The position numbers were made by a program, and so were the translations under genes. From Rosa chinensis (taxonomy: Eukaryota > Streptophyta > Magnoliopsida > Rosales > Rosaceae), in the NCBI RefSeq assembly GCF_002994745.2, contig NC_037094.1:40355456-40419455 (forward strand): a DNA stretch of 64,000 bases, in the 5' to 3' direction. Position 1 is the stretch's first letter; each line of letters opens with the position of its first letter. This document shows, piece by piece, positions 4,603 through 41,427 of the stretch. The notes under the pieces were generated by a model. It did no database searches, was not told the DNA's origin, and was given only the letters and a program-made list of their open reading frames with translations.

Positions 4603-4620
4603 TCCCAGGCAACGGCGCCA
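4603..4620 (-). promoter_or_regulatory. Primer-binding site for tRNA-Asp (one mismatch)
   Basis: Read on the minus strand it is TGGCGCCGTTGCCTGGGA, five bases inside the LTR end at 4626. It is complementary to the 3' end of plant tRNA-Asp, the usual primer of Athila elements (family knowledge, recalled not searched). The related site at 25176-25193 has G where this copy has T, so this one carries one mismatch. Confidence 0.8.
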
Positions 4621-7600: not shown

Positions 7601-9101
7601 TTATTTTTGTAAATAATACACTTTGTGTTTTTATTAATTGTTTAATTGTCCTACATTGACAGGTGTACCCTCAATCCCCGGAATAGAACGATCCCTATTT
7701 ACTATATACTAACGATGACATTTCAGGGTTAAATTATGCGCTTGCTTTTAGGCGTATCACCTTGTTCAAACATAAACGTTAACTAGAACAATCTTTAACA
7801 AAATCAAACAAGGAGAATCAAAAGTGATTACAAGAAAGAAGGTTGAATTACACCGTGAATGGAGAGGTGGATGAATAACTCGAATGATGAAACAATGAAA
7901 CTTGAAAGCACGCTTCAAAGTGCCCGGCTTCAAGGTGGAATGGTGGAGATGCTCACGGCTTGGTCTTGCTTCTTCCTTCCTTGCTTGAAAATGCCAAAGG
8001 TTGAACTAGAGAATGGAGAGAGCTTTCGCGCGTGGAGAGAATTTTCTGAATTGTAAGGTATGTATTTGAGACGTCTAGGGTGTAGTATATATATGGAACG
8101 GCAAGACTTGGACTCCAAGCCGTGATTTTCTGTTTTATTTCCCAAGGAATTAATTTAATAATTCCACATATCTTCCACCAATGAGAAATTGCCAAGTAAG
8201 CCCTAGTGTGTCATCCAACCAATCACAAAACTCCAAGATGATTCCCTAATATATTCTTGCCGAAATTCCTTGAATATTTTCTGATTTTCTTCTTGTAATT
8301 CGGCCAAGATATCCTTAGGGTTTTAAGGAATGAATCTAGACGCCATTTGGTCCTTTTCTTGATTTCTTTCCTTAAATTCAACCCTAGAAAATCTCTTGCG
8401 TAATCTTTTATTTCTTCTTGATTTTTCACGCCACTTTTCTCTCCTCCCTTTGGTTTTCACGGCAAAGCATCTCTAGGGTTTCATCCTTGCGTCACAAACC
8501 CTAATTTCATGGGCTTTCATGGGCCTTGATCCATTTAGCCGAAAATCCAATTCAAATCTATAGAGTTCTTGGGCCTCGTTGCTTCATCTTCAAGCCTTTT
8601 CTCCCTCCAACGTCTAGACACATTATTTTTCCATTTCTTTTTCATGGTTGCGTTGGAAACTTGCTTGGGAAGCCTTCCTCCATTTCGCAGGGTTTCCTGG
8701 TTGGAACAGGAAAGCTTATTTCTTTATTTCTGCTCAATTGTGTGGCCCAATTCGTCTCATATTTGTTCTTCTTAACGGTCGCAAGCTCCTCTTTCCATTC
8801 GTGAGTTCATTTCCACTTTTTAGCTCGGAGGTCCTGAAAATAGAAACTATACTGAAAATAGAAACTTTCTAGAAATGAAAATAGAAACTTACTAAAATTG
8901 AAAAATAGAAACTTTCTAAAAATGAAAAATAGAAACTTGCCAGAAATGAGAAATGAAAACTACAAAAATGGAAACTTTCTACAATAAGGAACTTTCCCAA
9001 TCAAAGAATGGAAACTTTCCCAAACAGGGATTTTTCAAGGAAATGACGCAGAAAAATGTAGGGAAATGCAGTTAAAATGTCGCATTAAAATGCTCCTATC
9101 A
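4626..9101 (-). repeat. 5' LTR, family A, minus strand, split by a solo LTR
   Basis: On the plus strand it begins TGATACGCTC and ends GCTCCTATCA. It is in two parts, 4626-5439 and 7760-9101, with the solo LTR 5440-7759 between them; without that insert it is about 2.15 kb. The primer-binding site lies directly left of it, so it is the 5' LTR of the element whose gag remnant is at 2710-3287. Its right edge abuts CACTA tnp2 sequence, into which the element inserted. Confidence 0.88.
5440..7759 (+). repeat. Solo LTR, family A, TSD CCTTG
   Basis: A 2.32-kb LTR (TGATAGGAGC..GGCGTATCA) flanked by CCTTG at 5435-5439 and 7760-7764. The interrupted LTR reads continuously across the junction when compared with 10990-11010. 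No internal sequence accompanies it. It is therefore a solo LTR left after recombination between the two LTRs of a full element. Confidence 0.95.
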
Positions 9102-10185: not shown

Positions 10186-11130
10186 TGATACGCTCAAAGC
10201 AAGCATATAATTTAACCCTAGAAATATCATTAGTAGTATAAGCAAGTAGGGATCGTTCTATTCCGGGGATTGAGGGTACACCTGTCAATGTAAGACAATT
10301 TAAACAATTAAAATAAAAACAAAGTATACTATTCACATATAAACACTATTCACGAATTTAGGGGGTTTTTGGTTTTTAGTTTTTCGAAAATTAAAAAAAA
10401 AGAATTAAAACTAAGTATAAACAAACATACAAATACAAGAATGAAATGTAAGAAACAAAGATTAACACCAAATTCATGATTAAATTTGAATTAACCCTAC
10501 ATTGTTCTTCCAAGTCATGTGAAAGGAGTGGATCATGTGAAACATTCGAAAGCAAACGATTTCCCATATTTTACTTTCAACGCTAATTAATCTAAGTGAA
10601 AGCACAAAGACTAATCCTATCACACATGTAATCAAGCCCTAGAAAGCTAGTCAATCATACACATTCAACGCAAGAAGCATCAAGAAAAGCTATCAACTCA
10701 AGTGCACAACTTAGTATGAATAAGTTCACCTAATTGCAATCCTCTTCAATTGAATTCGATCTTTGTCCAAAACCTTTACTACTTTCGATTTAAGTTACAC
10801 AAAACAAAAAGTTGATTTCATGTTCTTAAATCTAGCACCATTCATATCAAAACCCTAAGTGTTTCGAACCACATAAGATTAAAATACAAAAGATATCTAT
10901 AAAACAAATTCAATCGAACAATCACACATAAGCAACTATGGAATCACAACATAGAAATCGAAAATCCTTAATCAATCATAAATTTTCAGAATATAAACCT
11001 TGTTCAAACATAAACGTTAACTAGAACAACATCCAACGAAATCAAACAAGAAGAACCGAAAGTGATTACAAGAAAGAAGGTTGAATTACACCGTGAATGG
11101 AGAGATGGATGAATAACTTGAACAATGAAC

Positions 11131-13446
11131 CAATTTAGCCCTGAAATGTCATTAGTAGTATAAAGTAAATAGGGATCGTTCTATTCCGGGGATTGAGGGT
11201 ACACCTGTTATTGTCAAACAATTAAACAATTAAAATTAAAACAAAGTATAATATTTACAAAAATATAACAAAATATATACATATTTACAAAAAAGGGGGG
11301 ATTTTTGATTTTTGGTTTTCTATTTCCGAAAATAAAAGCTAATTAAATAATTAAAATGCAAAAACATAAAAATACAAATGAAATGCAAGAACAAAGATCA
11401 AAGTCGAAACTCATGATAAAAATTGATTCAAGTTCACCATTGTTCATCATAGTCATGCAAGAGGAGTTGATCATGTGAAATGTTCATAAGCAAACAATTT
11501 CCCATATTTTACTTTCAATGCTAAGTAACCTAAGCAAAAGCACCTAGATTAATTCTATCAAACATGCAATCAAACCCTAGAAAGCTAGTCAATCATGTCA
11601 TGTTTAATGCATTAAGCACCTAGAAAGGCTATCAACTCAAATGTGCAACTTAGTATGGAAAAGTCCACCTAATTGCAATCTTCTTTGATTAAATTCGGTT
11701 TTTGTACAAAACCTTTACTACTTATCGATTCAAGAACACAAAACCAAAAAGTTGATCCATGTTCTCAAATTCGTAGCAACATTCACATAAAAACCCTAAA
11801 TGTTTCGAACCATTCAAGATTATCATACAAAAGATTTCTATCATGCAAATTTAATCAAACACTCACACAAAAGCAACCATAAATCGCAATATATGAATCT
11901 GAAAATTAACAATTAATCATAAAATTTCAGAAAACAACACTTGTTCATACATATGTGTCAACTAAGGCAAAACCAACGAAAATACAAAGCAAAGGTACAA
12001 GGAGAATCGGATTACACCGTGATGAAGATGAGATGAATGAAGTGATGAATGGTCTCTTGAATTTCGGAAGCAATCTTCAAGGTGGAGGATGGATGGTGTT
12101 CACGGCTTGTCCTCTTCTTCCTTGGCCTTGCTTGCACTTCGTGGTTGCCCTAGAGGATGGAGATGAACACGGCTAGCTAGAGAGAGTTTTTCTGATTTTT
12201 TTCAAAGTGTAAACGCAAAAGTGGGAACTCCTTGACGTTGAGAGAAGAGAGGAATATATAGGGGACGGCCCCTAGGTCTCCATGCCGTCCAAAACCCTAG
12301 AAAAGCTCACGGCTATTGCTTGCTTCTTCCACATAATTTCCTCCAATGAATTCTTGCCACATAAGCCCTATGAGGTGGAGCAACCAATCACAAAATTCCA
12401 GAATTAATTCCCTAAATAATTCTTGCCGAAATATGTAGATAATTTCTGATTTTATACACCAATTTCGGCAACAATATATTTACAGAATAAAGGGGGATGA
12501 ACCTAGACTCCTTTGAGAGCTTTTTGTGTTCAACACATATTCTCTTTCCTTTAAAAGCTCCCTAAGAAATCTCCACGAAATCTCTTTATTTTTCTGATTT
12601 TTCCTCACGGCAAAAACCCTAATTTCTCTCTTCATTATCTCTTGGCCGAATTCCCTAGGGTTTGCACGGCATTCCCTTGTTTTCCTCTTGGCTTGGACGG
12701 CTAGGAGTCTTCTAGGGTTTATCTCTTGATTTATTTCCATAAAAATAGCCCTAGAAAATCTCCCTAGAAAATCTCCTTTTAATTTCTGATTTTCCACGTC
12801 ACCTCCTTGTTTCTCTCTTGCAAATTCACGGCAAAACATCTTTAGGGCTAGGGTTTGCGTCACAAACCCTAGTTCCATGGGCTCTTGTGGGCTTTTATCC
12901 AATTAGCCGAAAATCCAACAAGTCTTGAGAGTTTTTGGGCCTCCATGCGTCACCTCTATGCCATGTCATCATCTAGAGTCTTCAAGAAGCTTCTCTCATG
13001 CCATGTCACTTCATTAATTCGATCTCCATTCATGGTTGGCTCAAGAGTCTTGTTTTGGCAAGCTTTCCTTTTCTGGACAGGGTTTCCTGGTTGGACCAGG
13101 AAAACTTCTTTTCTTCATTTCTGCTCATTTGTGCTTCCCTTTGTACTTCATCTTGTCTCCCTCCAACGTTGGCTAGCTTCTCTCTCCATCTGTGAGCTCG
13201 TTTCAGCTCATTTGTGACAAGGACCTGAAAATAGAAACTAGTAAGAAAAATAGAAACTTTCCTAAAATGAAAATGGGAAACTTTCTAAAAATGAAAAATA
13301 GAAACTACCGAAAATAGAAACTTTCTACAAATAGGAACTTTCCCAATCGAAGAATGGAAACTTTCCTAAACAGAGTTTTATTAAGGAAATAACGCAGAAA
13401 ATGCAGGGAAAAGCAAGTAAAACGTCGCATTAAAATGCTCCTATCA
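11131..13446 (-). repeat. 3' LTR, family B, of the composite element
   Basis: It matches the 5' LTR at 25199-27561 almost base for base and is followed on the right by the polypurine tract. It starts at base 24 of the family consensus (CAATTTAGCCC), so the terminal 23 bases including TG are deleted together with about 48 bp of host LTR. It carries a TATA box near 12250 on the minus strand and GAAACTTTC repeats at 13226-13375. Confidence 0.9.
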
Positions 13447-15415: not shown

Positions 15416-18400
15416 TTAATCCTCAGGGTTTGGAACGTTTTGGAGGGGTACATCCTCCACTTCATGTTCCACAAATGCCTCATAGTAAGGCTTCAAGCGA
15501 TGGCCATTCACTTTGAACTTGTTGCCTGTTTGTTCACTCTTTATCTGCACAGCTCCATGAGGAAACACATGAGTGATAACAAAAGGCCCAATCCAACGAG
15601 AACGAAGCTTACCTGGGAAGAGTTTGAGACGAGAATGGAAGAGAAGAACTTTTTGACCCACAACAAAAGTCTTCCTTCGAATCATTTTATCATGGAATGC
15701 CTTAGTCTTATCCTTGTAAATCTTAGCACTTTCGAAGGCATCATTCCTAATCTCCTCTAACTCTTGCAATTGCAACTTCCTATGAAACCCAGCTGCATCA
15801 ATATCCATGTTGAACTGCTTCACATCCCACCAAGCTCTATGCTCTAACTCCACAGGTAAATGGCAAGGTTTGCCATAGACAATTCGATATGGTGACATAC
15901 CTATGGGAGTTTTGTATGCAGTTCTGTAGGCCCACAAAGCATCCTCTAGACGCAAGGACCAGTCCTTCCTGTTGGGGTTCACAGTCTTCTCCAATATCCC
16001 CTTGATCTGGCGATTAGAGACCTCCGCCTGCCCACTAGTTTGGGGGTGATAAGGTGTAGAAACCTTATGTGTCACATCATATCTCTTCAAGAGAGCCTCA
16101 ATCGTCCTATTGCAAAAATGGGATCCACCATCACTAATGAGAACTCTAGGCATTCCAAACCTGCTAAAGATGTTAGACTTGATAAAATCTGCAACAACCT
16201 TAGAGTCATTAGTTCTAGTGGCCTTTGCTTCCACCCATTTGGAAACATAGTCCACTGCAAGTAAGATATATATGAACCCAAAAGATGATGGGAAAGGTCC
16301 CATGAAATCTATACCCCAAACATCAAAGATTTCAACAGTTATGATATTAGTCAAGGGCATTTGATCTCTAGGGCCTAGGTTTCCTATTCTTTGGCACTTA
16401 TCACAAGTTAAACAATAGGCATGTGCATCCCTAAACAATGTTGGCCAATAGAACCCAGACTCTAGTACCTTAAACGCAGTCTTCTTAGACCCAAAGTGTC
16501 CCCCACATGCTTTAGAATGGCAAAACGAAAGTATAGCATTATGTTCATGTTCAGGCACACATCTTCTAATCAATTGATCAGAACAATATTTCCATAGGTA
16601 AGGTTCATCCCAAACATAGTGCTTAACAGTTTTCTTAAGCCTATCTCTATGAGCACGTGACATGGTATCAGGAATCTTCCTAGACACAATATAGTTCACA
16701 ATATCTGCATACCATGGTTCACTTACCTGAAGTCCAAAGAGTTGCTCATCTGGAAATGTCTCCACCAGAGGGAGATGATCTTCTGCATGCACCAAGCGAC
16801 TCAAGTGGTCAGCTACCACGTTCTCACTACCCTTCTTGTCCTTGATTTCCACGTCGAATTCTTGCAAGAGTAGGATCCATCTGATGAGCCTTGGTTTCGC
16901 CTCCTTCTTGGTCATCAAGTATTTTAAAGCTGCATGGTCAGTAAAGATAGTAACTTTGGTACCAAGTAAATAAGAGCGAAACTTCTCAAGGGCAAAGACA
17001 ACTGCAAGGAGCTCTTTCTCTGTGGTGGAGTAGTTCATTTGTGCATCATTGAGAGTCCTTGAGGCGTAGTAGATGGCATAGGGTAGCTTGTCCTTCCTTT
17101 GCCCCAAAACAGCTCCAGCTGCATAGTCATAGGCATCACACATCAACTCAAAGGGCAAGGACCAGTCTGGAGGTAACATGATGGGGCCAGATGTCAACAA
17201 CTCCTTAAGCTTGTCAAAAGCTTCTTGACACTCCTTGTCAAAGTGAAAGGGCACATCCTTCTGGAGTAGTTGACATAAGGGTCTCGAAATCTTAGAGAAG
17301 TCCTTGATGAACCTCCTGTAAAAACCTGCATGGCCAAGGAAAGAACGAATCTCTCTCACAGAAGTGGGAGAGGGTAAGTGACGCACAATATCCACCTTGG
17401 CCTTATCAACCTCTATACCCCTAGCAGAGACAATATGTCCTAGAACTATCCCTTGTTGAACCATAAAATGGCATTTTTCCCAATTAAGTACAAGGTTAGT
17501 TTCCATGCAACGTTTCAAAATTATCTCCAGATTATTAAGACAATCATCAAAATTCTTTCCAAAAACTGAAAAGTCATCCATGAATACCTCTATGATTTTC
17601 TCAATATAATCTGAAAAGATACTTACCATACATCTCTGAAAAGTACCTGGAGCGTTGCAAAGTCCGAAGGGCATACGTCTATAAGCAAACGTTCCAAAGG
17701 GGCAAGTGAAGGTTGTCTTCTCTTGGTCTTCATTTGCAATTGCAATCTGGTTGTAACCAGAGTATCCATCCAGGAAGCAGTAGTAGTCATGTCCAGCTAG
17801 GCGCTCAAGCATCTGATCAATGAATGGTAGAGGAAAGTGGTCTTTCCTTGTAGTTGCGTTGAGCCTCCTATAGTCAATACAAACTCTGTGGCCTGTGACT
17901 GTCCTTTGAGGCACCAGTTCATTATCAGCATTCTTGACCACAGTGATCCCAGACTTCTTGGGCACGACCTGAACTGGGGATACCCACTTGGAGTCAGAAA
18001 TAGGGTAGATTACCCCACAATCAAGGAGTTTGATAACCTCCTTCTTCACTACTTCCATCATTGGAGGGTTGAGACGACGTTGAGCCTCTCTAGTGGGTTT
18101 AGACCCCTCCTCTAGAAGTATTCTGTGGACACAAGTTGTAGGGCTGATTCCCTTGATATCCGCCAATGTCCATCCTATGGCGGTCTTGTGTTGCTTCAAC
18201 ATTTCCACCAACTTCTCTTCTTGTGGAGTCGTCAGTGCAGAGGACACAATCACTGGTAAGGTCTCCTTGTCCCCTAAGTAGACATACTTCAAATGGTCTG
18301 GAAGAGGTTTTAGCTCTAGTTCTGGGGCCTGGACCACTGAAGGTAAAGTCTTGTTAGTGGATAACTGAATGGACAGGGGAGAAACAGACTTACCTAGATA

Positions 18401-20242
18401 GGGAGATGCCTCAAGGAAGGAGACGTTTTCAATGATTTTCTCCTCACAAGTGTCTCTCAACTTGTCCTCTGGAATGATGATTCCTTCCTTTGTATAGCCT
18501 ACCCCACTCTCAAGGGTACTGACTAAGGTATCCTCATGCATAATGTCAAACATTTTCTGCGCAAGTTCATCCAAAATATTAGTAGAAAAGCAATCATGAA
18601 CCTCTAGGGGATACCTCATGGCTTCAAAAATGTTAAAGCCAATAACGTCACCATCGAACTCCATTGTAAGAGAACCTTCATACACATCAATCTTCGTCCT
18701 AGCTGTCCTTAAGAAAGGACGTCCCAAAAGCAATGGAGTTGAACTTACAGGGGAGTCCTCCATTTCCAACACATAGAAATCAGCTGGGAAGATAAGATGG
18801 TTAACCTGTACAAGCACATCCTCCAACAAACCTCTAGGGTATGCATTGGATCTGTCAGCTAACTGAATGATAACGTTGTCAGATTTAAGTTCCCCTAGAC
18901 CTAGGGTTTCATAAACAGAGTAGGGCATAACATTAACAGATGCACCTAGGTCTAGCATGGCATTCTTAAATCTAGAGTTACCAATAGTACAAGGAATAGT
19001 AAAGCTTCCAGGATCCTTACACTTTGGAGGAATCTTCCTCTGAATCAGGGCAGAGACATTCTCACTTACCTTTACCACCTCCTTTTCACGGTTTACTCTC
19101 CTAGTAGTGCAAAGCTCTTTGAGGAACATGGCATACTTAGGGACTTGCTTGATGGCCTCTAGGAGGGGTAGGTTCACTTGCACCTTCTTGAAAGTTTCCA
19201 AGATGGCTTGGTCACTTTGATCCTTCTTAGATTGGGCAAACCTGCGTGGGAAGGGCATGCAAGAAGTAGAAGGGTTAGCAATAACCGAATTTGTTAAGTT
19301 AGAATTACTACCTGATACTTCCGGTTTTGCCTTTAATGGTGAGGACGCCCTTGTCTCTTCCTTGGACGTTGCAGGGTCCTTCTCAAGACCCAACTTGGTG
19401 GGGTCTTGGTCTTTCTCAATTTCTATGCTCACTTGGGCCTTCTTGGGTTGCTTTGGTTGATCCACAAATGGTCTTCCACTCCTTGTAGTAACAACTGATG
19501 CATTCTCCACATTAGGGTTAGGTATTGTATTACTAGGGAGCTTGCCAGTCTCGTGGATCTTGCTCATGAAATCCACAACTTGACCCATTTGCTTCTTGAG
19601 CTCTGCAATGTCCTTGGTGTGGGTCTGTTGTCCTTGAATCAAAGCCTGTGTAGAGTTTGTCAAGGCTTGGGTAGAACTAGTCAAGGCCTCCAACGTCTTG
19701 TCATAGTGAGACGTTGAAGATCCTGAATTTTGTTGAGGAGGAGGCATGTAAGGCCTTTGAAAAGATGACCCTTGGAATGAAGGCCCTTGTGGACGTTGGA
19801 AATTCCCTCCAAGAGGATTCTGAACGTTATCATTGTTGGTCCACTTGAAGTTGGGATGGTCCCTCCATCCTGGGTTGTAAGTATTGGAGTAAGGGTCATG
19901 TCTAGGACGTTGAGGTCCTCCTTGATATCCTCCTTGATATCCTCCAATAGCATTTGCAGATTCCCAACCTCCATTTTCATTAAGTTGGGGGCACTGATCT
20001 GTAACATGCCCTTGCATAGAGCACACCCCACAAGCCATTGTTGCACTTGATCCCTTGGAACTTACCACTTGGTTCATGAGGAGAGTCAGCTTATTCAGTT
20101 GATCTTCAATGGCAGTATTCTTGCTCATCTCATGCACCCTACGAGTAGAGTGTCCTACCCCCTCATATTGTTGAGAGTTTAGGGCACGATTAGCTACAAG
20201 TAGGACTTGGTTGGAACAATGGTGATGGTTTCTGTTAAGCAT
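15416..20242 (-). CDS. pol: Athila-like gag C-terminus + pol polyprotein (PR-RT-RH-INT)
   Basis: One frame of 1608 codons. Codons 1-15 are antisense of a 3' region, and gag homology begins near 20197, so the true N-terminus is lost. Next comes a gag zinc knuckle (C71, C74, H79, C84). The protease is near 414-515, with D431 in an unusual DLGA. RT spans about 700-930 with FMDD at 887-890. RNase H spans about 1030-1150 with D1036, E1075, D1102 and D1145. The integrase has an HHCC-type finger (C1280, C1283) and a core D1312, D1371, E1407, with exactly 35 residues between the last two. DYVSKWVEA is typical of Athila. No stop or frameshift breaks it. In the family, pol copies the RNA and inserts the DNA into the nuclear genome. 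Activity would need gag from the adjacent frame. Confidence 0.93.
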
Positions 20243-21939: not shown

Positions 21940-23502
21940 TCAGTTGGCGGAACCTTCAAAGCTTCCCTTTGGGTTTTGAATTGTGTTGCTCGGAAGCTTA
22001 CCACTCTCATGAAACTTGGTCATGAAGTCCACCACTTGTCCCATTTGCTTCTTGAGCTCTGCAATATCCTTGGCATTGGTCTGTTGTCCTTGAAGCAAAG
22101 TCTGTGTGGCATTAGTCAATGCCTGAGTAGAATTAGTCAATGCCTCTATCGTCTTATCATAGTGAGAATTGGGATTCCCTACATTGTGTTGAGGAGGCAT
22201 GTAAGGTCTTTGATAAGGAGGTCCTTGAGGACGTTGGAAACTGCCACCAAGAGGGTTCTGAACATTTTCATTGTTGGTCCACTTGAAGTTGGGGTGGTCC
22301 CTCCATCCAGGGTTATAGGTATTCGAATATGGATCATACCTTGGACGTGGGGGACCCCCTTGGTTCCCTTGATAGCCTCCTATAGCATTCACAGATTCCC
22401 AACCACCATTCTCACTCAGTTGAGGACATTGATCCGTAGGATGTCCTTGAGTAAAGCATACCCCACAAGCAGAGGGTCCTCCATGGCCTTGAGTAGTCGC
22501 CACCTTGTTCACAAGAAGGGTGAGTTTGCTCAATTGATCCGCAATGGCAGGACTAGTGCTCACCTCATTTACCCTACGAGTGGGTTGTCTCACACCCTCA
22601 TACTGTTGGGAGTTTAGGGCACGATTAGCTATAAGTTCCTTCCCAACCGCAGGTGACTTATCCACAAAAGCTCCACCAGCTGCAGCATCCAACATTTGCC
22701 TTTCCAAGGGTAAGAGTCCTTCGTAGAAACATGTAAGTAGGGTCTCATCCTTCATCTGATGTTGAGGACACTGTGCAAGTAGGGAGTTGAACCTCTCATA
22801 GTACGCAGCATATGACTCATCATGGGCTTGCTCTATTCCACTAAGCTTCTTCCTAAGTGTGATGACCTTTGAAGCTGGGAAGTATTTCTCCAAGAAGGCC
22901 TTTCTCATTGTTTCCCATGATGTGATACGTCCTGCAGGAAGTTCATATAGCCAATCCTTGGCTCTATCAGCTAGAGAGAATGGAAATGCTCTCATCTTAA
23001 GAAGGTTCTCATCTGCTCCTTGTGGTTGCATGTTTGCACAAACAGATTGGAATTCTCGTACGTGCTTGTTAGCATCCTCCATATTGAGGCCATGGAAGAT
23101 AGGGAGCTTGTGCAACAATCCACTCTTAAGCTCGAACTCTGCCTGTCTTCCAGCTGCAGGGGCAGGGTATACTATGCCTGTAGGGGGTCCTCCTTCAACA
23201 GTTGCGGTGGAGAGTTCCCTAATAGATGTCATTCTCTCTTCTTCGACTTCTTCAGGTGGTGGTGAAGGTGGTGTAGAGTTGGACGAAACCAAGGGTGAAG
23301 GTGAACGTGAAGGCGGAGATGGACTTGGTGTAGGTGATGTAGACTCCTCAGAAAAGTAAATCCGCTTCCCTTGCTCGTTAAATGTGTACTCCTTGTATGT
23401 TGAAGGGGAAGGGCTTGTGTGCTCAAGGAGTGAAGGACCCTTCAAACGAGCGAGCCTTGCTTCAATTTCCTTTAGTGTAGATGGTCTAAAAGGCTCGGTC
23501 AT
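21940..23502 (-). CDS. gag: gag, complete, gag-only type
   Basis: A 520-codon frame begins at an ATG at 23502, in the same place as two other gags. The N-terminal 90 residues are rich in S, P and E. The capsid-like Retrotrans_gag core lies at about 120-290 (FHGLNMEDANKHVREF, FPFSLADRAKDWLYELP, EGLLPLERQMLDAAAGGAF). A CCHC zinc knuckle follows at C346, C349, H354, C359. The C-terminal part is rich in Q, N and P. The frame stops after KGSFEGSAN, where the pol-bearing relative runs on into protease. It is intact and matches the 513-aa gag at 58100-59641, including that stop. The likely role is forming particles and packaging RNA, with pol from a relative. Confidence 0.92.
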   Translation of the reverse strand: MTEPFRPSTLKEIEARLARLKGPSLLEHTSPSPSTYKEYTFNEQGKRIYFSEESTSPTPSPSPPSRSPSPLVSSNSTPPSPPPEEVEEERMTSIRELSTATVEGGPPTGIVYPAPAAGRQAEFELKSGLLHKLPIFHGLNMEDANKHVREFQSVCANMQPQGADENLLKMRAFPFSLADRAKDWLYELPAGRITSWETMRKAFLEKYFPASKVITLRKKLSGIEQAHDESYAAYYERFNSLLAQCPQHQMKDETLLTCFYEGLLPLERQMLDAAAGGAFVDKSPAVGKELIANRALNSQQYEGVRQPTRRVNEVSTSPAIADQLSKLTLLVNKVATTQGHGGPSACGVCFTQGHPTDQCPQLSENGGWESVNAIGGYQGNQGGPPRPRYDPYSNTYNPGWRDHPNFKWTNNENVQNPLGGSFQRPQGPPYQRPYMPPQHNVGNPNSHYDKTIEALTNSTQALTNATQTLLQGQQTNAKDIAELKKQMGQVVDFMTKFHESGKLPSNTIQNPKGSFEGSAN

Positions 23503-24417: not shown

Positions 24418-25175
24418 GAAAATACTTACAAATATTTGTTTTTCTTCCTTTTCTTTACAATTATTTTCAACACTTAGGTACGGGAACAGGGAGTCTCGAT
24501 GTGCAATCGGACTGAAACAGCTACCCTTTTCAAGACTATGTTTAATCCAATATACCTTAGTGAATCATAATATTTTCATTTGTTATATATACCATTGATT
24601 TCAAATTCAATTCCAAGCGGTAAATCAAGAGGACGTGCGGCCCAAGTATAGTCGTCAAGACACTAAGTCCCTCTTACATCCTTTGGGCAACCTTACTGAA
24701 ATGGCCAGGTAGGGGAGGGTGACCACGAGAGGTAGAATCCATTTTGGCATGAGCTACTCCCACATTGTGGTTTAGGCTCATTTGCACGCACTTCTGAATT
24801 CAAGAACCAGTCATGAGCGTTGTCCCCTTTCCTAGACACCACCCCACATAGGCTATACTTACTTGGATGAAAAAGATTCTAAGTGTGAAGACAGTTCAAT
24901 GAATGTTAATAAAGGCCGCCCTCAACCTTAAGGGACCTGAACTAGGTACCAATAAGGGGTTTAGGCCAATATTAATAAACATGACTTCACCTATTCCTTC
25001 TTTAATTTACAACTTACAATTAAAATTCGTATTCAATAATATAAATAACAACCTAAGTAATTAATCTACTAATTTTCGACAATTACAAAATAATTAACAA
25101 GTAAATTTTTTTTTTTTTTTTTTTCGGTCACAATATACAAAACAAATATTCACAATATGGCAAATGATTTTTCAA
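23503..25175 (-). other. 5' leader of the composite element
   Basis: Untranslated leader with the same conserved blocks as 3288-4602. Two diverged modules are visible, near 23815-24215 and 24600-24990. It carries a plus-strand poly-T run of about 50 bases at 24359-24415, with a few C interruptions, and another at 25108-25124. Short plus-strand frames through the T run are not coding. Confidence 0.7.
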
Positions 25176-25193
25176 TCCCCGGCAACGGCGCCA
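25176..25193 (-). promoter_or_regulatory. Primer-binding site for tRNA-Asp
   Basis: On the minus strand TGGCGCCGTTGCCGGGGA, five bases from the LTR end at 25199. It is a full match to the Athila-type tRNA-Asp primer site (family knowledge). The eleven bases 25172-25182 are exactly complementary to the U5 motif at 25278-25288. Confidence 0.88.
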
Positions 25194-25198
25194 AAAAT

Positions 25199-27561
25199 TG
25201 GTGTCGCTTTTAGCGAGCGACCAATTTAACCCTGAAATGTCATTAGTAGTATAAAGTAAATAGGGATCGTTCTATTCCGGGGATTGAGGGTACACCTGTC
25301 ATTGTCAAACAATTAAACAATTAAAATTAAAACAAAGTATAATATTTACAAAAATATAACAAAATATATACATATTTACGAAAAAGGGGGGATTTTTGAT
25401 TTTTGGTTTTCTATTTCCGAAAATAAAAGCTAATTAAATAATTAAAATGCAAAAACATAAAAATACAAATGAAATGCAAGAACAAAGATCAAAGTCGAAA
25501 CTCATGATAAAAATTGATTCAAGTTCACCATTGTTCATCATAGTCATGCAAGAGGAGTTGATCATGTGAAATGTTCATAAGCAAACAATTTCCCATATTT
25601 TACTTTCAATGCTAAGTAACCTATGCGAAAGCACCTAGATTAATTCTATCAAACATGCAATCAAACCCTAGAAAGCTAGTCAATCATGTCATGTTTAATG
25701 CATTAAGCACCTAGAAAGGCTATCAACTCAAATGTGCAACTTAGTATGGAAAAGTCCACCTAATTGCAATCTTCTTTGATTAAATTCGGTTTTTGTACAA
25801 AACCTTTACTACTTATCGATTCAAGAACACAAAACCAAAAAGTTGATCCATGTTCTCAAATTCGTAGCAACATTCACATAAAAACCCTAAATGTTTCGAA
25901 CCATTCAAGATTATCATACAAAAGATTTCTATCATGCAAATTTAATCAAACACTCACACAAAAGCAACCATAAATCGCAATATATGAATCTGAAAATTAA
26001 CAATTAATCATAAAATTTCAGAAAACAACACTTGTTCATACATATGTGTCAACTAAGGCAAAACCAACGAAAATACAAAGCAAAGGTACAAGGAGAATCG
26101 GATTACACCGTGATGAAGATGAGATGAATGAAGTGATGAATGGTCTCTTGAATTTCGAAAGCAATCTTCAAGGTGGAGGATGGATGGTGTTCACGGCTTG
26201 TCCTCTTCTTCCTTGGCCTTGCTTGCACTTCGTGGTTGCCCTAGAGGATGGAGATGAACACGGCTAGCTAGAGAGAGTTTTTCTGATTTTTTTCAAAGTG
26301 TAAACGCAAAAGTGGGAACTCCTTGACGTTGAGAGAAGAGAGGAATATATAGGGGACGGCCCCTAGGTCTCCATGCCGTCCAAAACCCTAGAAAAGCTCA
26401 CGGCTATTGCTTGCTTCTTCCACATAATTTCCTCCAATGAATTCTTGCCACATAAGCCCTATGAGGTGGAGCAACCAATCACAAAATTCCAGAATTAATT
26501 CCCTAAATAATTCTTGCCGAAATATGTAGATAATTTCTGATTTTATACACCAATTTCGGCAACAATATATTTAGAGAATAAAGGGGGATGAACCTAGACT
26601 CCTTTGAGAGCTTTTTGTGTTCAACACATATTCTCTTTCCTTTAAAAGCTCCCTAAGAAATCTCCACGAAATCTCTTTATTTTTCTGATTTTTCCTCACG
26701 GCAAAAACCCTAATTTCTCTCTTCATTATCTCTTGGCCGAATTCCCTAGGGTTTGCACGGCATTCCCTTGTTTTCCTCTTGGCTTGGACGGCTAGGAGTC
26801 TTCTAGGGTTTATCTCTTGATTTATTTCCATAAAAATAGCCCTAGAAAATCTCCCTAGAAAATCTCCTTTTAATTTCTGATTTTCCACGTCACCTCCTTG
26901 TTTCTCTCTTGCAAATTCACGGCAAAACATCTTTAGGGCTAGGGTTTGCGTCACAAACCCTAGTTCCATGGGCTCTTGTGGGCTTTTATCCAATTAGCCT
27001 AAAATCCAACAAGTCTTGAGAGTTTTTGGGCCTCCATGCGTCACCTCTATGCCATGTCATCATCTAGAGTCTTCAAGAAGCTTCTCTCATGCCATGTCAC
27101 TTCATTAATTCGATCTCCATTCATGGTTGGCTCAAGAGTCTTGTTTTGGCAAGCTTTCCTTTTCTGGACAGGGTTTCCTGGTTGGACCAGGAAAACTTCT
27201 TTTCTTCATTTCTGCTCATTTGTGCTTCCCTTTGTACTTCATCTTGTCTCCCTCCAACGTTGGCTAGCTTCTCTCTCCATCTGTGAGCTCGTTTCAGCTC
27301 ATTTGTGACAAGGACCTGAAAATAGAAACTAGTAAGAAAAATAGAAACTTTCCTAAAATGAAAAATGGCAACTTTCCTACACTGAAAATGGGAAACTTTC
27401 TAAAAATGAAAAATAGAAACTACCGAAAATAGAAACTTTCTACAAATAGGAACTTTCCCAATCAAAGAATGGAAACTTTCCTAAACAGGGTTTTATTACG
27501 GAAATAACGCAGAAAATGTAGGGAAATGCAGTTAAAACGTCGCATTAAAATGCTCCTATCA
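25199..27561 (-). repeat. 5' LTR, family B, of the composite element
   Basis: On the plus strand it begins TGGTGTCGCTTTTAGCGAGC and ends GCTCCTATCA. The primer-binding site lies directly left. It contains TATATA at 26346-26351 on the minus strand and the U5 block CCGGGGATTGA at 25278-25288 (plus). It inserted into the LTR A that resumes at 27562. A 140-codon frame on the transcribed strand (26571-26993) is broken in a sister LTR and is not called as a gene. Confidence 0.92.
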
Positions 27562-28172: not shown

Positions 28173-29943
28173 TGATACGAGCACAATGTGCGACAATATT
28201 AATGAGTATATGCCCAATTTTAGCCTTGTTTCTCCCTTAAGTTTCGTGTTTTGAGTCATCGAGTCATTTTAAGAGTCTTGTAGAGTGTTTGGAGTGAAAT
28301 AGGTGGAAAAAGTAAAATTCATGAAAAATCCAAGCTGGATCAAGATTCCTCACTGTCGACTGTTTTTGCGGTCTTTACATTTTAATTCCCTTTATTTTCT
28401 CTAGAAAATTTTGATATTCTCCTGCTTGTTGTAGGAAACATTGCCTGGTGGAACACTTGGAAACAGCAATGATGGAGTCATAAAATAAAGCATTAAGATA
28501 TTTGACCAAGCAATGAAGAAGAGAAATAAAGGAGAAAGACGTTTTCAGTTGGGGAATAAAGGAGAAAGACGTTTTCAGTTGAGGAATAAAAGAAAAAGAT
28601 GTTTCAACTGGAAAAAAAATAAGAGAAAGATGTTTCAGCTTGGAAATTAAAGGAATTGCCTAATTATGATAGGAGTTAAGTCCTTAAAGGAGATGTTTCA
28701 GTTGGAAAATTAAAGGAATTACGATGCAATCCCATCCGTCCAATGATGAAGGGTATGATCGACAAAAGCCAACCAATGCTCCCCTATAAATAGGCAACGT
28801 TCAGAACAAAATTTTCATCACTTCCCCCAGCCAAGATCATTTCATGGCCTATCACTTCATTGCCTATCACTTCCTGGCCAAAAACTTTTCCGAGACTCTG
28901 CCCAATTCACTTCTTAAACTTCCATCACCTACAAGACCGTGACACCATCCATCCATCAATCTACAAAGCTCTTAGGCGCTGAGTCAAGGACGCTCCATCA
29001 CCATAGCAGAGACGAGTTAATCACCGTGTTGCTAAGCCGCTGAGGAAAGCTTCAAAGTGTAACTATGACTCTACTTACAATTTTTATTTCGGTTTTGTGT
29101 GTTTCAATTTGCGAGTTGTGTAATTGGAGACACGGAATTTTCAGAATATTTTTATTAATATTTTTGAGATTTTCAATTTATTATTGAGTTAATTTCGAGA
29201 ATTCTTTTATGATGCATGTTACAATCTTGTGCCCTTTTATGTGTTTAGGTAATTTTCAGAGTTAGGTTCATAAGTTTGCATGCTAGAATCACGCTGAGTG
29301 TTCATGTGTGTTTGCTTAATTTGCCAAGAGCAATTGTTATTTGTTAAGACGCTGAGTTAAACAAGTAGTAATTAGTTCTAACGGGTGGTAAAAATCATGC
29401 TTTAATGATTAAATGATTCTGGAAATTACGTGTTAAATTCTATGTGTAATGGTTAATTTGCACATGTGAGTTGATTCGAGGGTTAGATAATACTACTAGT
29501 TAAGAGAACTACGCTGAGTGTTTTCGAAATTTAGTAGTATTAGGCTTGGTAAGGACTTTTCCGATCCAAACCTACATTAGAACGAATCAGATAAATGGAT
29601 TGATCCGCTGAGGCTTTTCATTTTGGCTCTTATCTAGGCATTTAAGGTGGGCACATTTTTGTAGCATGTTGAAATGAATTTTCTGTTTTTACACTTAGTA
29701 ATTTCCGAGTGGTATTGGTCTAGGTTAGGGAAGTCGATCATTGTATATAGTTTTATTTGCTTTGTTTTTACTTTTAGTAGATTAGAAACCAAATTCCAAA
29801 ACCCCCATTTTATTCTTTTATTTGTTAATTGACCTTTTTGTGTAGGTGTACCCTACAATCCCCGGACTGAATGATCCCTGCTTATCCTATACTGACAACT
29901 ACATTTTGCAGGGTTAAATTGTGAGGCTATTTCAGCCGCACCA
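28173..29943 (+). repeat. Solo LTR, family D, TSD AAAAT
   Basis: It begins TGATACGAGC, ends CAGCCGCACCA and is flanked by AAAAT at 28168-28172 and 29944-29948. The host LTR A reads continuously across (CCGAAAATCCATAGAG). It is 1771 bp and contains a CTATAAATAGG promoter-like box near 28782. It gives the undisturbed target sequence of the CACTA insertion found at 46257. Confidence 0.95.
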
Positions 29944-30976: not shown

Positions 30977-33356
30977 TGGTGTCGCTTTTGTTGAGCGACC
31001 AATTTAACCCTGAAATGTCATTAGTAGTATAAAGTAAATAGGGATCGTTCTATTCCGGGGATTGAGGGTACACCTGTCAATGTAGGACAACAAACAATTA
31101 AAATTAAAACAAAGTATAATATTCACAAAGGTATTTACAATTATAAACATTATTTACGAAAATAGGGGGGATTTTTGGTTTTTGGTTTTCTAGTTCGAAA
31201 ATAAAATCTAAGTAAAGAATAATTAAAATGCAAAAAACATAAAAAATACAAATGGGATGTGAGAACAAAGATCAAAGTCGAAACTCATGATTAAAATTGA
31301 TTCAAGTTCATCATTGTTCATCATAGTCATGCAAGAGGAGTTGATCATGTGAAACGTTCAAAAGCAAACAATTTCCCATATTTTACTTTCAATGCTAATT
31401 AACCTAAGCGAAAGCACCTAGATTAATTCTATCAAACATGCAATCAAACCCTAGAAAGCTAGTCAATCATGTCATGTTTAATGCATTAAGCACCTAGAAA
31501 GGCTATCAACTCAAATGTGCAACTTAGTATGAAAAAGTCCACCTAATTGCAATCTTCTTTGATTAAACTCGGTTTTTGTACAAAACCTTTACTACTTATC
31601 GATTCAAGAACACAAAACCAAAAAGTTGATCCATGTTCTCGAATTCGTAGCAACATTCACATAAAAACCCTAAATGTTTCGAACCATTCAAGATTATCAT
31701 ACAAAAGATTTCTATCATGCAAATTTAATCAAACACTCACACAAAAGCAACCATAAATCGCAATATATGAATCTGAAAATTAACAATTAATCATAAAATT
31801 TCAGAAAACAATATTTGTTCAAACAATTGTGTCAACTAAGGCATAACCAACGAAAATTACAAAGCAAAGGTTACAAGGAGAATCGGATTACACCGTGATG
31901 AAGATGAGATGAATGAAGTGATGAATGGACTCTTGAATTTCGAAAGCAATCTCCAAGGGTGGTGATGGATGGTGTGCACGGCTTGTCTTCTTCTTCCTTG
32001 GCCTTGCTTGAACTTCGTGGTTGCCCTAGAGGATGGAGATGAACATGGCTAGGCTAGGGAGAGTTTCTGATTTTTTCTCAAAGTGTAAATGCAAAAGTGT
32101 GGAACTCCTTGACGTTGAGAGAAGAGAGGAATATATAGGGGACGGCCAACTTGGTCTCCAAGCCGTGAATTTCTTCTTTATTTTCCATGGAATTAATCTG
32201 AAAATGCCACATAGTTTCCTCCAATGATAGCTTGCCACATAAGCCCTATGAGGTGGTGCAACCAATCACAAAATTCTCTTTTAATTCCCTAGAAATATTG
32301 CCGAAATTCCTTGAGATAATTTCTGATTTTTCTTGTTTAATTTCGGCCAACTTCCTTTAGGAATTCTAGGAATGAATCTAGACTCCATTTAAGCTTTTCT
32401 TGGTCTCCACCTTTTTCTCTTTCCTTAAAACTCTCTAGGAAATCTTTTTGCCGAAATCTCTTTGTTTACTTCTTGATTCACACGGCAATTCTCTCTCCTT
32501 CCTTGTATTTCTCACGGCAATCCCTAGCTTCTCTCTCTCTTTAAACGGCAAAGGCTCAAGATAACTCTTCCAAGAATATCTCATTCCAAGAAAATCTCCC
32601 TAGAAAATCTCCACCAAAATCTTCTTATTATTTCCTGATTTTCCACGTCATCTTCCTTGTTTCTCTCTAGGATTTCACGGCAAAACATCTTTAGGGCTAG
32701 GGTTTGCGTCACAAACCCTAGTTCCATGGGCCTTTGTGGGCTTTTATCCAAGTAGCCGAAAATCCAACAAGTCTTGAGAGTTTTTGGGCCTCTATGCGTC
32801 ACCTTTATGCCATGTCATCATCTAGAGTCTTCAAGAAGCTTCCCTCATGCCATGTACTTCATTAATTCGATCTCCATTCTTGGTTGGCTCAAGAGTCTTG
32901 TTTTGGCCAGCTTTCCTCTTTGGACAGGGTTTCCTGGTTGGACCAGGAAAACTTCTTTTCTTCATTTCTGCTCATTTGTGCTTCCCTTTGTACTTCATTT
33001 TTGCTCCCCTTGTAGTTCGCAAGCTCCTCTTTCCATTTATGAGTTCATTTCCACTTTCTAGCTCGGAGGTCCTGAAAATAGAAACTAGTAAGAAAAATAG
33101 AAACTTTCCTAAAATGAAAAATGGCAACTTTCCTAAACTGAAAATGGGAAACTTTCTAAAAATGACAAATAGAAACTACCGAAAATGGAAACTTACTAGA
33201 AATGATAAATAGAAACTACAAAAATAGAAACTTTCTACAAATAGGAACTTTCCCAATCAAAGAATGGAAACTTTCCTAAACAGAGTTTTATTAAGGAAAT
33301 AACGCAGAAAATGTAGGGAAATGCAGTTAAAACGTCGCATTAAAATGCTCCTATCA
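30977..33356 (-). repeat. Solo LTR, family B, TSD ATTTG
   Basis: It begins TGGTGTCGCTTTTGTTGAGC, ends GCTCCTATCA and is flanked by ATTTG at 30972-30976 and 33357-33361. Removing it and one target copy restores a continuous tnp2 reading across WKHNL and RHNLDVMH, which confirms the borders. No internal sequence is present. Confidence 0.96.
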
Positions 33357-36800: not shown

Positions 36801-38827
36801 AGTTTCGACTTTGATCTTTGTTCTCACATCCCATTTGTATTTTTTATGTTTTTTGCATTTTAATTATTCTTTACTTAGATTTTATTTTCGAACTAGAAAA
36901 CCAAAAACCAAAAATCCCCCCTTTTTCGTAAATATGTATATATTTTGTTATATTTTTGTAAATATTATACTTTGTTTTAATTTTAATTGTTTAATTGTTT
37001 GACAATGACAGGTGTACCCTCAATCCCCGGAATAGAACGATCCCTATTTACTTTATACTACTAATGACATTTCAGGGTTAAATTGGTCGCTCAACAAAAG
37101 CGACACCAAACACGAACTAAGAGAAACCAAGTAGAAACGAATTGGGAGTTCCTTGAGATGTTCTACTATATATAGCTTGTGTATTAGACGTTCAGGGTGA
37201 CACATTATTCTCCACAATTTCGTTTCTCACCGGTTTGCTCTTGAGTTTCAGGTTTTCGCGTCTTGCAAGTTCTAGCCGTGCCATCCTCCATCTTTGCCGT
37301 GATCTTCACTTTTTGCCGCCGCCTTGGATCTGCGTTGGACCTTGGGATGTGTCTAAGGGTTGTTCTTACCATCTTCATCATGTTTTCTTCTCGGTTTTGT
37401 AACTTGTTAGATAGAAATTCTGTTTTTGTTTTTCTTTGTGTAAAACCAAAACCATGAGTTAGTTTTCTGATTTTTGGATGCGATTTGGATAGTCTTTTCA
37501 ATGTTTGATGTGTTTATGTATGTTTGATTTTTGTTAATTGCCGATTTCATGGAATGATGATCTGATTTTGTTTTATGGAAAACTTTTGCATGTTCTTGTT
37601 CTTTGGTTCGAAACTTAGAGTGATTGCATGTAATTGGAGCTAGTAATTAGGTTTATGCGTTGTAACCCTAATTCACTTAAGTAGTAAAGGCTTTGGACAA
37701 AGGTCGAAATTAGATTATGCATGTGATGAATTGACTTGAGTTGAGTACTTGGATTTGCATGTTCATTGACCAAACTTTCACTTGTTCTTAATGATTCAAA
37801 TGCATGAGATCATGAGTTGCGTTGATTGTGTGATACCTGCGTTTGAAATATGTTGGATTAAGTGCGTTGCTTAATTGACTAAGTAAAGGGAAGTAAAATT
37901 AGGGACATTGGTTGCGTCGATCTTTGTTTCTTGGTTGATGATGTTCCATGGTAATTAACAAGATTAAGGGATGCATGAATATGTTGTTCTTGATTAGTTC
38001 TTGAAAAATTGTTCTTCAAAGATTCTTCTTTTCCCACCTTTGTAAATAAAAACAATTTTAATCTTTGTTTACTTTCTGAAAATTTCGATTTCAATCTTTA
38101 AAAAACCCCCTATCTTTATGTTTTCTTGTTTGTGTAAATAGATAAAATTAACTTAGATTTTTAGGTAGCATGTTAACTTAGTTAAATAAAATAATAAAAG
38201 AAAAATATTTTTAAAATTCATGAATAGTGTCTCCGTGAATAGTAAATATGTGTTTGTTTTTAGTTTTAGTGTTTTTTAGGAGTTTGTTATGTGTTTGTTA
38301 TGTGCTCCTATTTTTTAGGGATTAGCTCCTAAATTTTAGGGAAAGTAGTTAGAGTTAGTTTTGACTTAGTATTTTGTGTTTGACTTGGTCAATAATTTGT
38401 TTTCTTAATAATTAAGTAATCTTAATCCTTGTTGTATATGGATTTCTAATGTGACATGGACTTGTAAATTGTGTTTAAATAGGAGTAGGATTTCCAAAAC
38501 CTTTTCTAACTCAAATTCTTTCTTTCTTTCGAATTCTATGTCTATATATACTTGTATATTTTGTTGTTTTCTCATTCCTTGCTCTCTAATTCGTGATACA
38601 TGTATGGTTGCTCTCTAATTCTTTGTTGTTTCTTTTGTTGTTCGAAATTTATGCATGCTTGTACTTGTAAAAATTATAATTTTCGTGTGATGTATATTCT
38701 ATGTTTCTTTGATTTGTTTCTCACATGTTAGCACCCTCAATCCCCGGTTTAGAACGATCCCTGCTTATCCTATACTAACGCTCGACATTTTCAGGGTTTA
38801 AATTGGCGATTGCTTTTGCACGCACCA
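33847..38827 (+). repeat. Solo LTR, family C, TSD ATTGT, split by a solo LTR B
   Basis: It begins TGATAGGAGCATAAAATGCG, ends GCACGCACCA and is flanked by ATTGT at 33842-33846 and 38828-38832. Its two parts are 33847-34806 and 37109-38827, about 2.68 kb in total. The U5 part keeps CTCAATCCCCGG and TTTCAGGGTT as in A and B, but the middle is unrelated. This is the only C copy in the window. TATATATAG at about 37171 is a possible TATA box. Confidence 0.93.
34807..37108 (+). repeat. Solo LTR, family B, TSD AACAC
   Basis: It begins TGATAGGAGCATTTTAATGC, ends AAAGCGACACCA and is flanked by AACAC at 34802-34806 and 37109-37113. It is nested in solo LTR C, so it is younger than that insertion. It is 2302 bp with no internal domain. 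Confidence 0.95.
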
Positions 38828-39200: not shown

Positions 39201-41427
39201 TGATACACTCAAAGTAAGCATATAATTTAACCCTAGAAATATCATTAGTAGTATAAGCAAGTAGGGATCGTTCTATTCCGGGGATTGAGGGTACACCTGT
39301 CAATGTAAGACAATATAAACAATTAAAATAAAATAAAGTATAATATTTACACATATAAACACTATTCACGAATTTAGGGGGGTTTTAGGTTTTTTTTTTT
39401 TTTTCGAAAATTAAAAGAATTAAAACTAAGTATAAACAAAAACACAAATACAAGAATGAAATGTAAGAAACAAAGATTAAAACCAACTTTACAATTGAAT
39501 TCGAATTAACTCTACATTGTTCTTCCAAGTCATGTGAAAGGAGTTGATCATGTGAAACATTCGAAAGCAAACGATTTCCCATATTTTACTTTTCAATGCT
39601 AATTAATCTAAGTGAAAGCACCAAGACTAATCCTATCAAACATGTAATCAAGCCCTAGAAAGCTAGTCAATCATGACATGTTTAACGCATGAAACACATA
39701 GAAAGGCTATCAACTCAAGTGCACAACTTAGTATGAATAAGTTCACCTAATTGCAATCCTCTTCAATTGAATTCGATTTTTTTCCAAAACCTTTACTACT
39801 TTTGATTTAAGTTCATAACACAAAAAGTTGAATCATGTTCTTAAATCTAGCACCAATTACATGCATATATCCTAAGTTGGCCACCAAAGAACATAAACAT
39901 ATAAAAGTTTTCTGTAAAGCAAATTCAATCGAACGATCACACATAAGCAACTTTGGAATCACAACATAGAAATCGAAAATCCTTAATCAATCATAAAATT
40001 TCAGAATTAAAACTTTGTTCAAACATCAATGTCAACTAGAACAATTCTAACGAAATCAAACAAGGTTACAAAGAAAGAGGTTGAATTACACCGTGAGATG
40101 AGATGGGGATGAAGGATAAAACGCTATGGATTCTTGAATCTCGAAAGCAAGCTTCAAGGTGGAGGATGGATGATGATGCTCATGGCTCCTTCTTCTTCTT
40201 CCTTGCTTGAAACGTTGAATGCACTAGAGGATGGAGAGAGCTTTCGCGTAGAGAGAATTTTCTGAATTATGGGGTGTGTAAAACGTCAAGAATGAGGGAG
40301 TATATATAGGGGACGTTGGCCTTGGTCTCCAAGTCTTCATGAATCTTCTATTATTTTCCCAAAGAATTATTTAATAATTCTGCATAGCTTCGACCAATCA
40401 CGTAGCGCCATGTAAGCCCTGGTGTGTCATCCAACCAATCACAAGCCTTCAAATAAGTCCCAAATATATTATTGCCGAATATCCATGAATTAGTTCTGAT
40501 TTTCTTCTTTATTTTCGGCCAAAATTCCTTTAGGAATTGTAGTAACGTATCTGGACTTGTTTTTGAACCTTTTCTTCCTTAAATCTCTCCATGGACTACC
40601 TTTAACGTCATCCCTTGATTTTCTCTTGATTTTCATGACAAAATGCAGATTTTATTCCTTATTTTCGTCCAAAATATATTGAGGGGCTTTAGGAACGAAT
40701 CTGGACTTGTTTTGAGCTTTAGGAACGAATCTGAACGAATCCCTTGAAACTCTCCATATAATATTTCCAACGTTTTTCCTTGATTTCTTCTTGATTTTTC
40801 ACATTATCTTCATGATTTCCCATGGCAAAATCAGATTTAATTCCCAAAAATATCTCCATTACGTCACAAAACCTTAATTCCATGGGCTTTTATGGGCCTT
40901 GATCCATTTTGCCGAAAATCCAACTCAAATCCATAAAGTTCTTGGGCCTCGTTGCTTCAACTTCAAGCCTTTTCATCCTCCAACGTCTAGACACTTCATT
41001 TTTCCATTTCTTTTTTCATGGTTGCGTTGGAAACTTGCTTGGGAAGCCTTCCTCCATTTCGCAAGGTTTCCTGGTTGGAACAGGAAAGCTTATTTCTTCA
41101 TTTCTACTCAATTGTGTGGCCCATTTTCTCTCATATTCGTTCGTCTTGATGTTCGCAAGCTCCTCTTTCCATTCGTGCGTTCATTTCCACTTTTTGGCTC
41201 GGAGGTCCTGAAAATAGAAACTATACTCAAAATAGAAACTTTCCTAAACTGAAAATGGAAACTTGCCAGAAATGAGAAATGAAAACTACAAAAATGGAAA
41301 CTTTCTACAATAAGGAACTTTCCCAATCAAAGAATGGAAACTTTCCAAAACAAGGATTTTTCCAAGGAAATGGCGCAGAAAATGTAGGGAAATGCAGTTA
41401 AAACGTCGCATTAAAATGCTCCTATCA
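39201..41427 (-). repeat. Solo LTR, family A, TSD GTTCC
   Basis: It begins TGATACACTC, ends GCTCCTATCA and is flanked by GTTCC at 39196-39200 and 41428-41432. It is 2227 bp. Its removal joins tnp2 HRWILF to HTDVVTPYLR in frame. Confidence 0.96.

Follow-up and report, generated by a model that had tools for sequence, protein, structure and literature searches.

In retroviruses such as Rous sarcoma virus, the U5 region of the genomic RNA takes part in stems (U5-leader or U5-IR, for inverted repeat, stems) that adjoin the primer-binding site (PBS). The subject of this analysis is a candidate counterpart in a long terminal repeat (LTR) retrotransposon of Rosa chinensis that lies in a 64-kb stretch of DNA (hereafter, the window; G000:C7:40355456-40419455) and was compared with its own 515-Mb genome of 53 contigs. 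In this element, a U5 motif is complementary to the last bases of the PBS together with the four bases that follow, and between families of related elements these four bases covary with U5. The reading that we favour, with a probability of roughly 0.62, is that, in the genomic RNA leader, the two strands would form a U5/PBS-extension stem, which would close a domain and present the PBS for primer placement or initiation.

In the predicted stem, as in the retroviral U5-leader stems, U5 would pair within the genomic RNA leader with bases at the PBS or beyond it, so that the PBS comes to lie in a fold. The hallmark of such a stem, U5 pairing with the PBS flank that is preserved through compensatory change, is found here. 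The difference is that U5 also pairs with PBS bases and with four bases past the tRNA match, that the setting is a tRNA-Asp-primed plant Ty3/gypsy element, and that the function is predicted.

Other comparisons draw on excerpts of the respective papers. The human immunodeficiency virus type 1 (HIV-1) PBS segment with its primer activation signal (PMC11181671) is similar in that leader structure around the PBS governs primer use. The HIV-1 signal, however, pairs with the tRNA, whereas the U5 motif shares the sense of the 3' strand of the tRNA T-arm, complements the PBS side and pairs with the element's own RNA. In the Ty1 5' pseudoknot, bases 1-7 of R pair with bases 264-270, 3' of the PBS, and this structure is needed for efficient initiation (PMC4974528). 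Unlike the stem described here, it belongs to another superfamily and has its partner well past the PBS, and the excerpt names no PBS bases in the pairing. The Sirevirus stem that exposes the polypurine tract (PMC3601003) is likewise an LTR-flank pairing in a plant element, but it lies at the 3' LTR and the polypurine tract and in the Ty1/copia group; the same work considers the LTR lengths of plant Metaviridae too variable for its models and calls LTR-flank pairing of interest. PBS types have been surveyed (PMC6317226). Among the titles and abstract beginnings of the open-access literature, no description of a U5/PBS stem in plant Ty3/gypsy elements was found; most subscription papers lie outside this scope, so that an earlier report may exist.

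Primer site and U5 motif of the element

The window consists of nested LTR retrotransposons and a 159-bp tandem repeat. The element under study is oriented on the minus strand and runs from the LTR through the PBS region (25193-25172) and gag (23502-21940) to pol (20242-15416). The frames of the window contain, according to Pfam, gag followed by reverse transcriptase (RT), RNase H and integrase in that order, as in Ty3/gypsy elements; the label Athila, given in the first-pass annotation, is adopted here provisionally. The relevant features are as follows.

25176..25193, minus strand: 18-nt PBS TGGCGCCGTTGCCGGGGA, complementary to the 3' end of tRNA-Asp (from sequence; primer identified by read-through copies of the tRNA at other genomic loci)
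25172..25175, minus strand: PBS extension TTGA, encoded by the element (positions 19-22); this is the strand of the predicted stem that covaries with U5 (sequence and covariation)
25277..25287, minus strand: U5 motif TCAATCCCCGG, with TCAA opposite the extension and TCCCCGG opposite PBS positions 12-18 (sequence, predicted fold)
25203..25221, minus strand: hairpin at the LTR end, inside the U5/PBS stem (predicted fold)
21940..23502, minus strand: gag reading frame 3' of the PBS (Retrotrans_gag by Pfam)
15416..20242, minus strand: pol reading frame (RT, RNase H, integrase, in that order, by Pfam)
4599..4620, minus strand: second PBS region, with one mismatch (CCTGGG) (sequence, fold)
4703..4713, minus strand: U5 motif partnered with the PBS at 4599-4620 (sequence, LTR-end alignment, fold)

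The 22-nt primer-site region TGGCGCCGTTGCCGGGGATTGA (25193-25172, minus strand) is the PBS followed by TTGA. The U5 motif (25287-25277, minus strand) exactly complements the final 11 nt of this region (25182-25172), made up of the last seven PBS bases plus TTGA. The two 11-mers are separated by 94 nt, and the start of the motif likewise lies 94 nt 5' of the PBS. The sequences, the exact complementarity and the spacing of about 95 nt given in the first-pass annotation thus stand, but some of its coordinates are off by 1-9 nt: U5 had been put at 25278-25288, and the motif copies that it placed at 2631-2641 and about 38735 are present at 2622-2632 and 38737-38747, both on the plus strand. The motif presumably lies 3' of the transcription start. 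The LTR-end hairpin position was also listed in a bacterial promoter/terminator scan, which is uninformative on plant transcription.

The motif is matched exactly 15 times in the window, 14 times in U5 and once in the PBS region, at 25172-25182; two more U5 copies, of family D, read ACAATCCCCGG (29855-29865, plus strand, and 60610-60620, minus strand). The motif had been described as invariant amid diverging LTR bodies; it is indeed kept, but alignment of 16 LTR ends in the window places it inside a conserved stretch that spans some 30 nt, approximately ACCCTCAATCCCCGG..TAGAACGATCCCT. A second conserved U5 block follows directly 3' of the motif (25266-25275, AACGATC; TACGATA, ATCGACC and AACGACC in other families) and is reminiscent of a T-loop. 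Because only two PBS regions are present, the window alone cannot show covariation, but its own genome can.

Covariation between U5 and the PBS extension

The primer is identified by genomic copies of it. In 13 of 200 distinct leaders (12 loci; the sample is enriched for odd extensions), at least 9 bases complementary to tRNA-Asp follow the PBS (TCGAACCCGGGTCACC and the like). Such copies are expected where plus-strand synthesis continued past base 58 of the primer, at which the modified base m1A58 normally stops copying. The expected tRNA-Asp sequence agrees with these copies. At the extension, the tRNA would give TCGA, not the element's own TTGA.

The 18-nt PBS occurs exactly at 2372 places in the genome; the reversed pattern has no match. 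By extension, these comprise 96 places where position 19 is not T, 53 with T then not T, 164 with TT then not G, 396 with TTG then not A and, by subtraction, 1663 with TTGA. The places read were the first 68 in the list, 70 of the 96, 30 of the 53, 28 of the 164 (20 new) and 29 of the 396 (20 new); TTGA places were read where they belonged to the first 68 or fell inside fetched loci. The family table contains 19 representatives, one copy each, picked by eye: 17 LTR families or subfamilies of the same genome, the peanut element Athena (sequence from an excerpt of PMC5904367) and L065 (BMWJ01000030.1). The latter is a 3.9-kb AT-rich contig filed under Streptomyces clavifer with a plant-like LTR end and a tRNA-Asp PBS, probably plant contamination of the Streptomyces assembly; among the matches listed in the PBS scans (24 viral-contig stretches and at least 118 genome-contig stretches), only this one looked plant-like. 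A search of viral contigs with a piece of RT yielded four stretches that matched a pattern, none of which was confirmed.

Across the 19 representatives, positions 19-22 form Watson-Crick pairs with U5 in 65 of 76 cells and G-U pairs in three. When the extensions were shuffled among families, the mean was 37.7 (standard deviation 3.61, maximum 55), and none of 100,000 shuffles reached 65. The same holds for the families of the own genome only (60 of 68; shuffle mean 39.0; 0 of 100,000) and for the fourteen distinct combinations (45 of 56; mean 24.7; 0 of 100,000), as well as for an earlier 14-family test that overlaps the 19-family one (48 of 56; mean 28.6; 0 of 200,000). Sliding the partner by 1, 2 or 3 bases leaves 28, 20 and 21 Watson-Crick cells, compared with 65 in register. 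When the anchor was free to move in the observed as well as the shuffled data (18 families, peanut excluded), 62 cells pair against a mean of 44.1 (standard deviation 2.89, maximum 57; 0 of 20,000). The pairing is concentrated in four positions: from position 19 to 25, the Watson-Crick counts are 16, 19, 15, 15, 8, 6 and 4 of 19, with the drop past position 22. The combinations of U5 and extension include TCAA/TTGA, ACAA/TTGT, CTAA/TTAG, CCAA/TTGG, TCAG/CTGA, TTAG/CTAT, TTAA/TTAC, TTGC/GCGC, TAGT/GCTA and others, and the families are diverged (gag identity to that of the window, over the aligned parts, is 32% for L145, 35% for L290 and 31% for L294).

Several choices define these counts. Under the rule used, 11 of 133 distinct leaders had no U5 anchor and one anchor was wrong (L263). 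By eye, three of the anchorless leaders carry the motif (L147, L174, L234); upstream sequence is different in L152, L226 and L275 (and also in L346), two are inner tandem repeats of L235, and L250, L259 and L265 have a diverged motif or extension. In the table, L331 and L334 stand for L263 (which has a 1-nt insertion), L347 for L250 and L265, and L315 was taken over L299. L239 was kept although its extension is a short tRNA read-through (63 of 72 without it). Left out were L336 (two Watson-Crick and two G-U pairs), L329 (an apparent recombinant), L202, L220, L221, L252 and other scarred or recombinant copies. In the unsorted set, the first 68 places and L065 gave 66 distinct leaders, of which 61 have at least three contiguous pairs to U5 past the PBS (G-U allowed, best TCC anchor); this scoring put the D-family leaders on a second TCC, and the D motif proper makes four Watson-Crick pairs.

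Genome-wide counts (U5 motif, a gap of 75-100, then PBS and extension) agree with the family test. Matched pairs are numerous (TCAATCCCC with TTGA, 1497; ACAATCCCC with TTGT, 316), compared with two each of the swapped pairs (ACAATCCCC with TTGA; TCAATCCCC with TTGT). Since the copies share descent, these counts show the stability of the matched state, and the case for compensation rests on the family test. The U5 motif of family D, which had been noted to differ by one base, does so, and its change is compensated by the D extension TTGT. The proposed stem over the 3' part of the tRNA-Asp site is therefore borne out by compensatory change at the family level and by the genome-wide counts; changes on the PBS side that were left unmatched in U5 would have spoken against it, and at both levels in this genome it passed.

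These data bear on three alternative explanations. The first is that the complementarity reflects chance or shared descent only. The motif is short, the repeats are related by descent, and 64 kb contain many chance near matches. This explanation is contradicted by the shuffle, slide and free-anchor controls and by the occurrence of several types of compensatory pairs (A-T, G-C, C-G; C-G, T-A, A-T; T-A, C-G, A-T), and we know of no copying step that would put an inverted piece of U5 next to the PBS, so that we give it hardly any credence.

The second is tRNA mimicry, whereby U5 would copy the 3' strand of the T-arm and compete with, or hand over to, the tRNA. Judged by the tRNA copies in the genome, tRNA-Asp reads TCGATCCCCGG where the U5 motif reads TCAATCCCCGG, a difference of one base, and TCC(C/T) or TC(C/T) is kept in the families read. 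These kept bases, however, lie opposite the tRNA-derived PBS, and the stem model likewise predicts their retention. The sequence on the 5' side of TCC varies by family and tracks the extension of the element, not the tRNA: the TCAA of U5 matches the element's TTGA and not the tRNA-derived TCGA, and the U5 of other families is still further from the tRNA and again matches the extension. Because U5 follows the extension where the two differ, mimicry, which the first-pass annotation had offered, is not supported as the conserved feature; for the variable part it is contradicted, and as an explanation it is very unlikely.

The third is self-priming, in which the leader motif itself would prime on the PBS. 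Eleven nucleotides of the leader are complementary to the PBS region, which resembles the self-priming leader of Tf1. Tf1, however, primes from its own RNA with no tRNA primer, whereas the elements described here carry copies of tRNA-Asp past the PBS, the product of tRNA priming, and it is the distal end of the PBS region to which the motif is complementary. As the main route, self-priming is contradicted by these copies and is extremely improbable.

Predicted folds and a competing local hairpin

Minimum-energy folds of the leader, a check that the first-pass annotation had proposed, contain the U5/PBS stem in both window copies and in L065. For the copy at 25172-25193, the z-score is -3.31, with 1 of 200 shuffles as good; for the copy at 4599-4620, it is -2.14 (4 of 200), and for L065, -2.23 (4 of 200). 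In ensemble folds of 22 leaders, the U5 stem is ahead in 12.

The region downstream of the PBS was folded separately. For 18 families, the PBS end and 28 nt past the PBS were compared with 500 mononucleotide shuffles of the last 24 nt, and eight families beat nearly all shuffles, with at most 7 reaching the observed value (L146, L154, L164, L315, L171, L148, L334 and L331). In seven of the eight, the paired strand passes through the PBS end and the extension (L331 folds otherwise), and the local hairpins reach 13 bp.

These hairpins raise the tentative alternative of a three-strand switch, in which the 3' end of the PBS and the extension would alternate between U5 upstream and an arm just downstream, the exchange timing primer access. 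The PBS 3' end would then be the middle strand of a bistable structure flipped by annealing of tRNA-Asp or by nucleocapsid; joint changes in the strands would let lineages tip the balance between the two states, and the covarying part would have its inner edge at tRNA base 58, where primer copying normally stops. In two families, L148 and L154, the downstream arm looks like the U5 motif, and U5 complementarity remains where the hairpin is predicted to win; since most hairpin families keep it, a switch could be accommodated. Conversely, ten of the 18 families show no convincing hairpin, L171 combines a strong hairpin with an imperfect U5 match, and there is no sign that both states occur. We accordingly regard the switch as possible but doubtful.

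The stem might also be real but serve packaging, dimerisation or translation of the genomic RNA and not the primer. Such overlapping signals are present in retroviral leaders (excerpt of PMC11181671). The stem, however, overlaps the PBS and stops four bases past the stretch that is renewed from the tRNA, a placement that suits the primer step better, and we consider this possibility unlikely.

Under the favoured U5/PBS-extension stem, the U5 motif would pair with the last PBS bases and the four element-encoded bases immediately 3' of them in the 5' leader of the tRNA-Asp-primed RNA. If it forms in cells, the stem would close a domain (about 80-135 nt in the families folded) in which the end of the LTR and the PBS 5' half are contained. 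The PBS would then likely be presented in a defined fold before primer annealing, with the 5' half free for the acceptor end of the tRNA and the 3' half and flank paired. The tRNA, aided by nucleocapsid, would displace U5 from the PBS bases, and the four-base remainder (positions 19-22) may stay, stacking on the tRNA:PBS helix, which would end at this boundary because copying of the tRNA normally stops at base 58. A role in primer placement or initiation is suggested by the position of the covarying part, just past the 18-nt tRNA match and fading after four bases, and by the likeness to the leaders of retroviruses, HIV-1 and Ty1.

Several observations weigh against this reading. The local hairpin is ahead of the U5 stem in 9 of the 22 leaders in the ensemble folds, and L145 favours neither. 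Five of the unsorted leaders fail contiguous pairing (L152, L171, L174, L176, L202); five copies of the L171 family (L171, L322-L324, L330) retain a C-A mismatch at position 21; and L143, L173, L328, L315, L294, L239 and L065 each miss one or two of positions 19-22. The families were picked by eye, copies share descent and close kin are included (L154/L164; L331/L334). U5 is so called by position only, and the case is built on sequence and predicted folds. Finally, some individual copies among the 200 distinct leaders carry changes at position 19 (T>C in 18, T>A in 7, T>G in 2) that U5 does not match; we take these changes for scars left when the site opposite tRNA base 58 was copied, and not for heritable states.

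Scars, further copies and significance

Position 19, opposite tRNA base 58, is a hot spot in otherwise normal copies of this genome (L174, L176, L215, L217, L222, L225, L227, L231, L237, L238, L240, L260, L268, L277-L280 and others), with T>C, T>A, T>G and one-base insertions, ten of the latter among the 200 leaders; misincorporation at the modified base is the likely source. Genomic fossils of read-through are L283, L284, L287, L289, L300, L301, L303, L305, L306, L308, L309 and L235, the last with A, not T, opposite base 58. The LTR end and PBS are tandemly duplicated in L219, where the PBS recurs after 31 nt, and in L235/L236, where three PBS copies are spaced by 73 nt; the duplications begin immediately behind either the base that faces tRNA base 58 or a tRNA read-through. 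At G000:C8:556989-563360, nine PBS places of the TC class follow one another at intervals of exactly 794 bases, forming a tandem array with a PBS in it; near-equal spacing at G000:C2:81792502-81803099 (5290, 5287) and G000:C3:4092037-4108641 (8292, 8292) perhaps reflects tandemly arranged elements.

The remaining U5 motifs of the window, identified by sequence match and LTR-end alignment unless stated otherwise, are listed below.

2622..2632, plus strand: exact, LTR copy
7671..7681, plus strand: exact, LTR copy
10263..10273, minus strand: exact, LTR copy
11186..11196, minus strand: exact, LTR copy; surrounding 300 nt 99% identical to LTR 25220-25519 (sequence match, alignment)
29855..29865, plus strand: family D motif ACAATCCCCGG; D copies elsewhere in the genome have the extension TTGT (sequence match, alignment)
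31055..31065, minus strand: exact, LTR copy
37020..37030, plus strand: exact, LTR copy
38737..38747, plus strand: exact, more diverged LTR copy
39278..39288, minus strand: exact, LTR copy
47734..47744, minus strand: exact, LTR copy
48316..48326, minus strand: exact, LTR copy
50632..50642, plus strand: exact, LTR copy
53894..53904, minus strand: exact, LTR copy
60610..60620, minus strand: family D motif ACAATCCCCGG

The 159-bp unit forms a tandem array at 50657-52994, with copies mostly about 90% alike; it is a satellite, perhaps centromeric or pericentromeric.

Little was found on how the RNA of plant LTR retrotransposons is structured at the primer site. A covarying stem that is shared by diverged families within one genome and recurs in two further sequences, plant or plant-like, carries the idea of the retroviral U5-leader stem over to this group. 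It provides both a defined two-strand target for probing and a sequence signature by which 5' ends can be recognised. Should the stem shield the PBS, access of tRNA-derived small RNAs to this site may be affected as well.

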